Shown here piece by piece: positions 953 to 9,971 of a DNA stretch of 55,756 bases. Both the position numbers and the translations under genes were made by a program. The stretch is taken from assembly GCA_030018315.1 (NCBI GenBank), contig JASEGA010000013.1:1-55756 (forward strand), in the 5' to 3' direction. Source of the DNA: a bacterium. GTDB lineage: Bacteria > Hydrothermota > UBA3073 > JACQXS01 > JAGMCI01. The notes under the pieces were generated by a model. That model searched no databases, was not told the origin of the DNA, and saw only the letters and a list, made by a program, of their open reading frames with translations. Positions within the stretch are counted from its first letter, which is position 1; each line of letters begins with the position of its first letter.

Positions 953-1162
953 TTATGGTACTGGATCATACCCACCAGAGTTCCAAGGGTTACAGCGTAG
1001 TACTCTCCATATCCCTAATATAAGCCCATGCAAAATACCATGTTTTTCTATTGCCTCTATCATATACCCAGAACAGCTTGGATAAAACTTGCAAGCAGGT
1101 GGTAAAAACGGGGCTAAAAGTTTATGGTAAAATTTGAGAATTAGAATTAAAAGTCTTTTCAT
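953..1162 (-). CDS. yidD: Membrane protein insertion efficiency factor YidD
   Basis: A 69-residue protein with the complete YidD pattern: an N-terminal amphipathic stretch, then CKFYPSCSGYMIEAI, a GxxxG-like segment, the WRVLRCNPW block and the terminal GGYDPVP. YidD assists YidC in inserting inner-membrane proteins and is normally encoded next to rnpA and yidC. Its ATG overlaps the stop of the upstream porV-like gene (ATGA), which indicates translational coupling. Here the porV-like gene and a toxin-antitoxin insertion lie between it and rnpA. yidC is not in the window. Length and motifs are normal for the family. Confidence 0.95.
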   Translation of the reverse strand: MKRLLILILKFYHKLLAPFLPPACKFYPSCSGYMIEAIEKHGILHGLILGIWRVLRCNPWNSGGYDPVP

Positions 1163-2501
1163 TGCTTAAAAACGCCAGTCCATAAAGCTTCAGCAGCTCC
1201 AGCAAGATAAAGTATACCTAAACCAACAGCTGAAACAGTTTTCTTTGTACCAGATGGCTGATGAAAATATAAGTCTCCAAGATAGAACCCAAGAGATGCG
1301 AAACATAACCCTTTTAATTCATTGCCATTATAAAACTGACCACCCCCAGGAAGCATTAAACAGGAAAGTAAAGTAGCAGCTATGTTCAATCTTTTATCAG
1401 CTTGAATAGACTTTGATTCTGAAAACTCATGTGGTATAACAGTTGTCTGAACACGCCATATATCGAAATCGTAAATGCTTGACTCATATGCAACCTCCAT
1501 ACTTATAGGACCGAGTTTAAATGCATAGCCCTTTGTTTCTGTAGGCATCAACTTATGGTCAAAATATTCCCACCTATATCCCCATCTATAAGACAGAAGA
1601 TTTAAGAGAGTAAGTTCATACCCCTCGCAATTAAATGTGTCGTGTTTTTCACCCACCAAATCAGTTATTTTCTCATATACTATTTGATATTTTAAAAACG
1701 TACTTAGTTTAAAAGGTAACTCTTTAGTAGGTAACAAGACATCAAGTGTAGAGATAGGCTCAAATGCAATACCCCTTCTTATAAGTCGTGGGAGTGATGC
1801 AGATGAGCCTGACCTATAGCTAAGCCCTAGACCTATATTTTGAAAACTGAGTCCCAAGGAGAGCCCTGGCAGAGGTAGCTTATAAAAGCCCCTATATCAA
1901 AAGCTACGGTTTTAGCAGTATAACTTCCTTCTTTATACAAAATACTCCACCCAATATCACTTGGACCTATGAAACTATAGATATATTTTAACGATGCACC
2001 TAATCCTAAACCTTTGCAAATTTCTTTCCCATAAGCAAGAGCTATTGCATAGTCATAAGCAGTCCAGAGCCCAATTTTATTGCAGTAGACATCGGTTGCT
2101 ATAATTCCACCTATGCTCATATAAGTATAACCAAGCCCTAAAATGCCTGTTTTTCTTAGAGGATACATAACGCTGTAATACAAATATCTCATGTCTGATA
2201 ACCACCACTCACCTTCAAGTGATATATGTGTTCCGTGAAAATGTTTTTCTCCAACATAATTTAACCAATGATGAAATAACTCTCGTCCAATCCCAGGAGG
2301 TGATGAAATATTCATTGCAACAATGTTTGTTCGTTAATGAAATGCTAAAGCACCCGGATTGTAATAGATAGCAGTGGCATCATCAGCTAAAGCTGTAAAT
2401 GCTGAGCCCATAGCTGCTGCTTTAGCACCAGGAGCGATTAAAAGAAATTGAGCACCACAGTCAGAAAAACTTAGATGAAGAAATAAGAAAATTGCTAACA
2501 T
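1159..2501 (-). pseudogene. PorV/PorQ-like outer-membrane barrel, broken by a stop and a frameshift
   Basis: Read from ATG 2501 with a strong ribosome site (GGAGGG, about 5 bases upstream), the frame gives a signal-like hydrophobic start, then the typical PorV opening: APGAKAAAMGSAFTALADDA and YYNPGALAF. An in-frame TAA follows at codon 54. The frame continues as 160 codons of beta-strand-rich sequence to about 1860, where one missing T in a TTT run shifts it; the rest continues as 232 codons ending at 1159. The tail has a hydrophobic GGGQFYNG-type segment followed by LYLAGAAEALW. Restoring both lesions gives a protein of about 447 residues. PorV-family proteins are beta-barrels linked to Por secretion and other surface functions. 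Either lesion could be a sequencing error; the amber-type change is harder to explain that way. Confidence 0.75.
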
Positions 2502-2515
2502 TATCCCTCCTTATC

Positions 2516-2551
2516 TAACACTAATTTCAAAGTCTCTTCCTTTAGTACAGA
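2516..2551. repeat. 36-bp direct repeat, distal copy (remnant of the old rnpA end)
   Basis: This copy matches 3243-3278 with one mismatch in 36. In the minus-strand rnpA frame it reads VLKEETLKLVLDKEG then TAA, and that stop overlaps the ATG of the porV-like gene. It therefore looks like the original 3' end of rnpA, cut off by the insertion of the mntA-hepT pair. Confidence 0.85.
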
Positions 2552-2557
2552 TATTTC

Positions 2558-2909
2558 TTAAGTTTCATTCTTTTCCAATTCCTTAATTACGGCTTCAAAT
2601 TCATTTTTAAGAGAAGGTAGTTTTTCTTTAATAGCTTGCCAAACAATATTCCAATTTACTCCAAAATAAAAATGAATAATCTTATCTCGCATTGCTGCAA
2701 TTCTTTTCCATTCAAATTTTTTATATTTATTTTTAAAGTCAGAAGACAAATTCTTTACTGCTTCACCAATAATCTCAAAACTTCTTGTAGAGGCTCGCTT
2801 TAAAACTTCATCTTGCAAATACTCTTCAAAAGTTAACCCTTGTGTTTTATCTATTTAAAAAAATTATTTCATCAAGGATATGTTTAAGATATGGTAAATT
2901 TTGTTTCAT
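2558..2909 (-). pseudogene. hepT: HepT-like RNase toxin of an MntA-HepT pair, frameshifted
   Basis: The gene starts at ATG 2909, inside the 3' end of mntA, and reads MKQNLPYLKHILDEIIFL before a frame break near 2855. After one base is removed (an A-rich site) the frame continues KTQGLTFEEYLQDEVLKRAS to the end. The HepT signature R-x4-H-x-Y is intact as RDKIIHFY, as is the family helix FEIIGEAVKNL. Corrected length is 116-117 residues, usual for HEPN-type HepT toxins. HepT is an RNase that is silenced when its MntA partner AMPylates the Tyr. As written the toxin would be cut to about 20 residues; an indel in an A/T run could also be an assembly error. Confidence 0.75.
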
Positions 2910-3204
2910 ACCATTTAACTTCCTTTTCTACATACGGTTGAATATAAGGACTTAAACTACCATTTGTTATTAGTTCAACTTTTTTACCAAATAATTCTTC
3001 AAGAAAAAAAACTAAATCCATAAAATCATCAAAGTTGGGGGTTTCAAACTCTACAAGAAAATCTAAGTCACTTCTTTCTTTTTGTTTACCTCTAATATAG
3101 GAACCGAAAAGACCTATTTTTTTAACCCCGTGTTTTTTTAACATATCCTCATGCTTTTTTAATAATTGAAATATAATTTTGTCTGTAAGTATTTTTGTCT
3201 TCAT
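2884..3204 (-). CDS. mntA: MntA-like minimal nucleotidyltransferase antitoxin
   Basis: A 106-residue protein with the minimal nucleotidyltransferase motif: GSYIRGK at residues 34-40, then SDLDFLVEF with the two catalytic Asp at 46 and 48 (GS-x10-DxD). Known MntA proteins AMPylate the conserved Tyr of HepT and so neutralise it; that role is inferred from family and context. ATG 3204 overlaps the rnpA stop (ATGA), and the hepT ATG lies inside its own 3' end, so the three are translationally coupled. A GTG at 3213 would add three residues but is less likely. The gene belongs to a module placed in the 3' end of rnpA between two 36-bp repeats. Confidence 0.85.
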   Translation of the reverse strand: MKTKILTDKIIFQLLKKHEDMLKKHGVKKIGLFGSYIRGKQKERSDLDFLVEFETPNFDDFMDLVFFLEELFGKKVELITNGSLSPYIQPYVEKEVKWYETKFTIS

Positions 3205-3560
3205 CTTACACACTCATCAACGCCTTGAATTTGCTTCCCACTTAACACTAATTTCAAAGTCTCTTCCTTTAGTTCAGAATAGCTTAATTGCTCAGCTCCT
3301 TTGTGTACAAGTATAATATAATCACCTTTAAAGTACTCTTTGTTTTGTCTATATAGCTCACGCAACCTGCGCTTCAATTTATTTCTCACCACAGCTCCTT
3401 TTATCTGATGACTGATAATAAACCCTATTCTTCTACTATGTGCCGGAAGTCGGATAATAGTGAGATTGTTTCCTGACATGTGGGTGCCAAATTTAAATAC
3501 TTTATCAAAGTCTTTATTCTTAATTAGTCTATCGCGAGGGGTGAAAGTTTTATTTGACAC
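3201..3560 (-). CDS. rnpA: Ribonuclease P protein component with a replaced C-terminus
   Basis: RnpA, the protein subunit that helps the RNase P RNA mature tRNA 5' ends. Visible features are the N-terminal TPRDRLIKNKDFDKVFK, the RNR-type box VVRNKLKRRLREL and the DYIILV strand. The chosen start is GTG 3560, six bases after the rpmH stop; this gives 119 residues, normal for RnpA. The frame is open upstream to ATG 3629, so a longer form overlapping rpmH, as in Thermus, cannot be ruled out. The last residues after LKLVL (SGKQIQGVDECVR) are encoded by inserted DNA: a second copy of the LKEETLKLVL segment at 2516-2551 leads into what appears to be the native end. The tail should be dispensable, since the RNA-binding core is complete. 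Confidence 0.93.
   Translation of the reverse strand: MSNKTFTPRDRLIKNKDFDKVFKFGTHMSGNNLTIIRLPAHSRRIGFIISHQIKGAVVRNKLKRRLRELYRQNKEYFKGDYIILVHKGAEQLSYSELKEETLKLVLSGKQIQGVDECVR
3243..3278. repeat. 36-bp direct repeat, proximal copy inside rnpA
   Basis: This copy encodes the ELKEETLKLVL part of RnpA and pairs with 2516-2551 (35 of 36 identical). The two copies bracket about 690 bases holding mntA and hepT, so the pair of repeats most likely marks a duplicated target made during insertion. Confidence 0.85.
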
Positions 3561-3564
3561 AAAG

Positions 3565-3699
3565 TTAAGCTGTAAGCCGTTTTCTGCCTTTTTTTCTACG
3601 CCTGGATAAGATATTTCTACCGGAGGCACTTTTCATCCTGTGCCTAAAGCCGCATCTCCTTTTACGCCTTATCTTTGATGGATGATATGTAGGCTTCAT
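3565..3699 (-). CDS. rpmH: 50S ribosomal protein L34
   Basis: A 44-residue, very basic protein beginning [20 protein letters not shown] and continuing [15 protein letters not shown], the classic L34 pattern. It is part of the large ribosomal subunit. Its ATG overlaps the clpP stop (ATGA), so translation is coupled to clpP. It lies directly upstream of rnpA, the nearly universal rpmH-rnpA order. Most bacteria have dnaA or an origin region upstream of rpmH; here clpP and tig take that place. Confidence 0.95.
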
Positions 3700-9244: not shown

Positions 9245-9725
9245 GTGAATAAAAGACTTATAGAAATTGCTAATCGTAGGAAGGAGATAATTTTAATGTA
9301 TATTTTCGGTTCCATGACTTACGGTAAAATAGGAGCCTTAAGTGATTATGACATTGCTATTCTTGTGAACAAGAAAGTCCCGTATAACTATAAGTATCAA
9401 GTTCATAGTGAGCTATGTGAGGCATTAAATACTGGTAAAGTAGACCTTGTAGTATTAAATTCTGCTCCCATTGAATTGGCATATAATATTATATATTATA
9501 GCAACTGGTAAATTGCTGTATGAGAGAAGTGTATATGATAGGGTTGAATTTGAGGCTAATACTCTAAGTAAGTATTTTGATTATCTTCCTGTTTTAAGAA
9601 AGCAAAGAGAAGAGATATTAAAGGAGTCAAATTATGAAAGAGGAATTCAGCGGTGTAGAGAGGCACTTAGAAAAACTGAAAGGATGCTTAGAAAAATTAG
9701 AGCCCCTCAAAGAAAGGAAGCTTAA
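9245..9725 (+). pseudogene. Second MntA-like nucleotidyltransferase, frameshifted by a 7-bp tandem duplication
   Basis: From GTG 9245 the frame has the nucleotidyltransferase motif FGSMTYGKIG then LSDYDIAILV, with both catalytic Asp. It runs to LAYNII and stops at 9511. Positions 9487-9493 and 9494-9500 are an exact tandem copy of TATTATA; removing one restores LAYNIIATGKLLYERSVYDR and the typical MntA tail VEFEANTLSKYFDYL. The rest stays open to 9725, overlapping the hepT-like gene. As it stands the protein loses its C-terminal third. The lesion type (exact short duplication) looks like a real mutation. Confidence 0.75.
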
Positions 9726-9971
9726 AGATTTTCTCTCCAATTCCGATTTACGTGACATTGCCGAAAGGAATCTTGAAATTGCAGCTCAACGTTGTATTGA
9801 CATAGGTGGAAGGATAATCTCATTGGAGCAAGCTGAGAAGCCTAAAGATTATAGAGAGCATATAACACGATTAGGTGAGCTGAAAATCCTTCCAATAGAA
9901 TTTGCCAAAAGATTTCAGATATCTATAAGTTTATGGGCCATATAAAATCATGGTTGAGCAAAAGGAAATAA
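9634..9971 (+). pseudogene. Second HepT-like toxin, catalytic segment deleted
   Basis: The first 93 or so codons look like HepT/DUF86: a helical start, then LRDIAERNLEIAAQRCIDIG and DYREHITRLGELKILPIEFA. The next frame should carry R-x4-H-x-Y, but the sequence jumps, with a frame change, to SDIYKFMGHIKSWLSKRK and a stop at 9971, which resembles the family C-terminus. About 30 residues covering the RNase motif are missing. The remnant overlaps the start of the downstream GT2 gene. The toxin cannot be active, which agrees with its partner also being broken. Confidence 0.7.

Follow-up and report, generated by a model that had tools for sequence, protein, structure and literature searches.

We analyzed a stretch of 55,756 nucleotides, here called the window, from the draft genome of a bacterium of the phylum Hydrothermota. 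At one place in the window, a HEPN-MNT (mntA-hepT) gene pair occupies the space between two copies of a direct repeat, the proximal copy lying within rnpA, which encodes the protein component of RNase P. The features of the locus are as follows, in the order in which they are read.

3201 to 3629, reverse strand: rnpA (RNase P protein), 142 amino acids, terminating in the new tail SGKQIQGVDECVR (open reading frame; Pfam PF00825, E 4.4e-24)
3243 to 3278, reverse strand: proximal repeat copy, in frame within rnpA (repeat search, random-pair scores, genome-wide core count)
3201 to 3242, reverse strand: new RnpA tail, SGKQIQGVDECVR-stop, assigned to the inserted segment, its stop overlapping the mntA start (open reading frame, sequence)
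2884 to 3204, reverse strand: mntA-like nucleotidyltransferase gene (putative antitoxin) with an intact GSX10DXD motif (Pfam PF01909, E 1.2e-13, and PF18765; NCBIfam MntA, 41.3 bits)
2558 to 2909, reverse strand: hepT-like HEPN gene (predicted RNase), frameshifted (Pfam PF01934, E 7.7e-21, on an 86-amino-acid piece)
2847 to 2863, reverse strand: A/T run and premature stop, the point at which the hepT frame is lost (sequence)
2516 to 2551, reverse strand: distal repeat copy (repeat search, random-pair scores, genome-wide core count); similarity may reach the hepT stop with one gap
2501 to 2515, reverse strand: presumed original RnpA end, DKEG-stop with AAGGAGG, the TAA overlapping the ATG of the next gene (sequence; ancestral by analogy with loci L106 and L149)
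1159 to 2501, reverse strand: PorV/PorQ-like pseudogene (NCBIfam NF033709, E 1.2e-17 and 1.4e-05 on two pieces)
953 to 1162, reverse strand: yidD, the ancestral neighbor of rnpA (Pfam PF01809; gene order in 5/7 order-level relatives)

A repeat search of the window reproduced the match that an initial annotation had described, a 36-nt direct repeat (2516-2551 and 3243-3278) with 35/36 identity and a spacing of 727. The pair scores 33, whereas 60 random 200-bp pairs at equal spacing within the window reach a maximum of 15. A 27-nt core has exactly two occurrences in the 1.95-Mb genome, with 3 mismatches tolerated, and the reversed core, searched as a control, has none in the whole genome. With a score beyond that of random pairs and a core confined to these two sites, the repeat is neither a chance match nor a dispersed element, and the latter reading of the 36-mer was rejected on the genome-wide count. 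Gapped alignment hints that the similarity extends for ~15 bases beyond the 36 nt, up to the hepT stop codon, with one gap. A coincidental repeat or a mis-assembled copy could be suspected from the draft state of the genome, which is in 74 contigs, and from the disrupting changes in both hepT and the PorV-like gene. The chance of this is next to negligible, as the repeat far exceeds chance scores and is unique in the genome, is much shorter than the segment that separates its copies, and belongs to an anatomy that was found again in independent genomes.

The two copies lead to two different ends of RnpA. Read in the rnpA frame, the proximal copy continues into SGKQIQGVDECVR-stop, a new tail of 13 residues whose TGA (3201-3203) overlaps the mntA ATG (3202-3204), and the distal copy reads LKEETLKLVLDKEG-stop, with a TAA (2501-2503) that overlaps an ATG at 2501 and is preceded by AAGGAGG. 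Both overlaps and the ribosome site had been noted in the initial annotation, which rightly placed the module inside the 3' end of rnpA. Its further claim, that the distal copy preserves the original end of the protein, fares less simply. Analogous arrangements at the sister loci L106 and L149 make it plausible that the DKEG end is ancestral, but RnpA C termini vary within the order, from 1 to about 17 residues beyond LKL, so the point cannot be proved at the window site, and the nearest relative, of another genus, has the shortest form, LKLI-stop.

Between the copies, gene order is MNT and then HEPN, and the GC content of the module is 27.6%, compared to 34.7% for the window and 36.2% for rnpA. 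The list of open reading frames in the window includes no integrase or transposase between the repeat copies, as the initial annotation had observed. Its identification of an mntA-hepT module holds for both families and for their order but not for an uninterrupted hepT. The mntA-like product matches PF01909 with 51.7 bits, and its GSX10DXD motif reads GSYIRGKQKERSDLD in the translation. The hepT start, an ATG at 2909, lies inside mntA; the frame from 2909 stops at 2847-2849, and the remainder is an 86-amino-acid open reading frame (2818-2558) that retains RX4HXY and, as the C-terminal piece, matches PF01934 with 74.5 bits against a cut-off of 23.5. The frame is broken near 2854-2863, leaving no intact toxin gene, and the HepT toxin is probably impaired. 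Programmed frameshifting was considered, as a run of seven T looks slippery, yet slippage by -1 would run into a stop codon, and mutation is likelier. The pair thus resembles HepT/MntA type VII systems in its matches to PF01934 and PF01909/PF18765, in its MNT-then-HEPN order, and in the GSX10DXD and RX4HXY motifs, and it differs from them in its frameshifted hepT and in falling below the NCBIfam equivalog cut-offs (60), with 41.3 bits for MntA and 28.5 bits for a truncated HepT piece. The distal repeat copy starts 6 bases past hepT.

To place the locus among its relatives, we compared the region from rnpA to yidD, as had been suggested with the initial annotation. A scan for RnpA in the genome contigs of GTDB 220 returned no close relative, the nearest belonging to another genus of the same family, and the comparison is therefore one at the level of the order. 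Within these limits, HEPN and MNT genes are absent from the rnpA loci of 7/7 relatives, and so is the PorV-like gene. In five of the seven (G001, G005, G002, G007, and G004), rnpA is followed directly by yidD; in the remaining two, yidD was not found near rnpA. In the window, yidD is not the gene right after the distal copy, since the PorV-like pseudogene intervenes, broken by an in-frame TAA (2334-2336) and by a frameshift near 1850, and yidD is reached only at 1162-953. As neither the module nor the PorV-like gene is present at the loci of the seven relatives, both are additions in the lineage of the window, and the presence of the PorV-like gene between rnpA and yidD implies more than one event at this locus.

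The explanation that we strongly favor is insertion with long target duplication, in which a solitary HEPN-MNT module entered rnpA close to its 3' end and copied at least 36 bp of the target. Of the two copies, the upstream one would have stayed in rnpA and gained the 13-residue tail whose stop overlaps mntA, and the downstream copy would have kept the presumed original gene end together with its original downstream context. An essential gene can be hit in this way because the target is duplicated and the host gene is not cut. The initial annotation had proposed much the same history, in which the module entered rnpA, duplicated its target, and gave the gene a new end; the repeat, the absence of the module from all seven relatives, its low GC content, and the sister loci support it well, although no same-genus genome was found that would show this very site in a single copy.

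At two sister loci, relatives show the site empty. Close relatives that lack the module carry the stretch in a single copy at L106 and L149, the relatives of the window being order level only. At L106, where the host gene appears NtrC-like from its C terminus, the module-free genomes G139 and G140 have a single gene end, beyond which they match what lies after the right copy. At L149, the gene adjacent to the module ends in KELQA-stop and the distal copy reads KELTE-stop, and the module-free genomes G144 and G141 end the gene in KELTE-stop. Relatives that end the gene as the distal copy predicts, which the initial annotation had called for, are thus found at these two sister loci and not at the window locus. 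A similar pair of ends is seen at L103, with KWDGEKHFAG-stop beside the module and KWDGQRQG-stop in the distal copy, at a site with no relative for comparison.

To ask how general this anatomy is, and in line with the search of other genomes that had been proposed, we compared the two 400-base flanks of each pair and recorded the highest-scoring ungapped direct repeat shared by them, taking scores of ≥18 as strong. Within the phylum, 147 genomes supplied 98 MntA-HepT pairs, of which 29 reach this threshold, compared to 9/176 windows of similar spacing at the same loci (Fisher p 5e-8), 2/143 windows at other loci, and 1/773 permuted flank pairs. These counts are not fully independent, as several modules come from one genus, and some of the repeats counted are not clean target duplications, being dispersed (L073) or part of a repetitive gene family (L086); repeats of these kinds could have arisen otherwise. 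In an independent set from GTDB 220, which covers Nitrospirota, Chloroflexota, Deltaproteobacteria, Methanosarcina, a haloarchaeon, and others, the corresponding figures are 17/73 pairs against 2/130 windows and 0/419 permuted pairs (p 6e-7). Two matches to MntA-HepT on gammaproteobacterial plasmids adjoin Tn3-type transposases and were left out as examples of solitary modules. About one-quarter to one-third of MntA-HepT modules in bacteria and archaea are therefore bracketed by long copied stretches, a hint that they share a mode of movement that needs no transposase, and about two-thirds of the pairs are without such a repeat. Flanks of rnpA itself in relatives have strong repeats in 0/28 cases.

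The PIN (VapC) loci of the phylum, chosen as a control family, have strong flanking repeats in 10/48 cases, indicating that the signal is not special to HEPN-MNT pairs. VapC loci lying between long direct repeats include L163, L276, L281, L269, L268, L272, L270, and L158.

What the repeats look like from site to site bears on how the modules arrived. In rnpA, the repeat is a long stretch of host sequence on both sides of the module. Across sites, the repeats are from about 12 to 260 bp long (median, 48), with a repeat-to-repeat distance of about 650-1230 bp, and both length and sequence differ between events, with no shared core. This variation indicates that the repeat is target sequence and no part of the module. 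L072 and L073 (in G092 and G050) illustrate the point: their modules are 98% identical, have in common only ~60 bases upstream and ~80 bases downstream of the genes, and lie at different sites between different repeats, and the repeats must thus come from the target. The L073 repeat is dispersed through its own genome and relatives, with many occurrences in G050, G092, and G146, and the L072 and L073 repeats may both be dispersed repeats. Repeats are found at gene 3' ends in the window and at L106, L149, and L103. Elsewhere, by our reading of the sequence, they lie at gene starts, with the right copy leaving the gene whole (recR in L210 and plsY in L218), or include a promoter-like stretch (L130 and L131), joined in L131 by a ribosome site. 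At the last two loci, the duplication seems to provide the module with a copy of the host promoter and to leave the host gene with one as well.

These features weigh on two other routes of entry. In site-specific integration, the 36-bp repeat would be an attachment core at which a recombinase acting in trans moved a circular module into the 3' end of rnpA. Tyrosine-integrase elements typically leave a gene-restoring repeat at a gene 3' end, with a usual core of about 36 bp, and the repeat in rnpA fits them in position, effect, and length. However, no integrase gene lies in or beside the module, the repeats of other modules range from 12 to 260 bp with no common att core, repeats also occur at 5' gene ends (recR and plsY, as above), and the near-identical modules of L072 and L073 are flanked by unrelated repeats. 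The variable length, the lack of shared sequence, and the lack of a recombinase argue against a classical transposon as well, and we regard integration of this kind as very unlikely. Alternatively, the end of rnpA may have been duplicated in tandem first, with the module arriving later between the copies or recombining in from a donor with an rnpA end of its own. Tandem duplications of short stretches arise often, homologous flanks help DNA to enter, and the repeat itself is consistent with such a history. Yet modules lie between copies at many sites, where independent events at each would be needed, and a copy brought in from another species would hardly be expected to agree with the host's own rnpA in 35/36 bases, making two steps improbable, though a little less so than integration. 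Under insertion with long target duplication, joining of the incoming DNA may have taken place at a pair of staggered breaks that were then filled in, or by template switching; the module itself encodes no enzyme for this step.

A precedent exists in restriction-modification (R-M) genes. In Helicobacter pylori, R-M genes have undergone insertion with long target duplication, as passages in PMC3874152, PMC1643837, and PMC3031569 describe with reference to Nobusato et al. 2000; the duplications are long and variable, on the order of 100 bp, and the stretch is single in strains without the insert. The window locus shares with these insertions an addictive gene pair, the lack of a transposase, and long direct repeats of variable length, and it differs in that they are mainly from one species, whereas here HEPN-MNT pairs and the surveyed VapC loci are involved, in bacteria and archaea, with rnpA as a target. 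A 2009 review described R-M and toxin-antitoxin systems as alike in "addiction and apparent mobility," citing Nobusato et al. (PMC2654758). Makarova et al. 2009 reported recent HEPN-MNT insertions in operons, for example one in the lysine operon of Thermus thermophilus strain HB8 that strain HB27 lacks, which resemble ours in placing a module within an operon of one lineage that is absent from a relative; flanking repeats go unmentioned in their text, from which the term "direct repeat" is absent, and no mechanism is given (PMC2701414). In the open-access literature, we found no report of target duplications for HEPN-MNT modules, subscription journals being outside the scope of this search. 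Tn3-family transposons carry toxin-antitoxin pairs (PMC7157771), and the plasmid copies of MntA-HepT adjoin Tn3-type transposase genes, whereas no transposase or transposon end was found beside the window module. A search of plasmid DNA with the module gave one weak cyanobacterial match only.

Loss of toxin-antitoxin pairs is costly, and their retention for this reason is established for several families. The addictive nature of such a pair would select for the cells that captured it, which would explain why rare insertions are so often seen around these pairs. Whether solitary toxin-antitoxin modules, HEPN-MNT and VapBC, are widespread mobile units that move without a transposase and make long, variable target duplications in bacteria and archaea is, in our judgment, evenly balanced. 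If they are, then copying of the target would extend to gene ends, promoters, and ribosome sites, and even essential genes would survive insertion. On how small solitary modules move when they lack a transposase, the rnpA locus offers a new and clean example that involves an essential gene. Of greater interest is the survey, as it provides a quantitative, testable case that many such modules enter through long, variable target duplications, as had been proposed for R-M genes. Sites with module-free relatives can be compared before and after insertion, and the chemistry of joining could be worked out from such comparisons.

With the toxin gene of the rnpA module frameshifted, no ongoing addiction is to be assumed here, and the idea in the initial annotation that coupling to rnpA would make the pair hard to lose finds no support and is weakened by the frameshift in hepT and the decay of the neighboring PorV-like gene. 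A second HepT-like open reading frame in the window (9634-9945) gives a partial match to PF01934 (E 1.8e-11) and adjoins glycosyltransferase genes. The genome as a whole (G000) has seven HepT-like matches, of which two besides that in the window contain internal stops (C1:169583-169939 and C6:63946-64278), and decay of HepT-like modules seems to be common in it.
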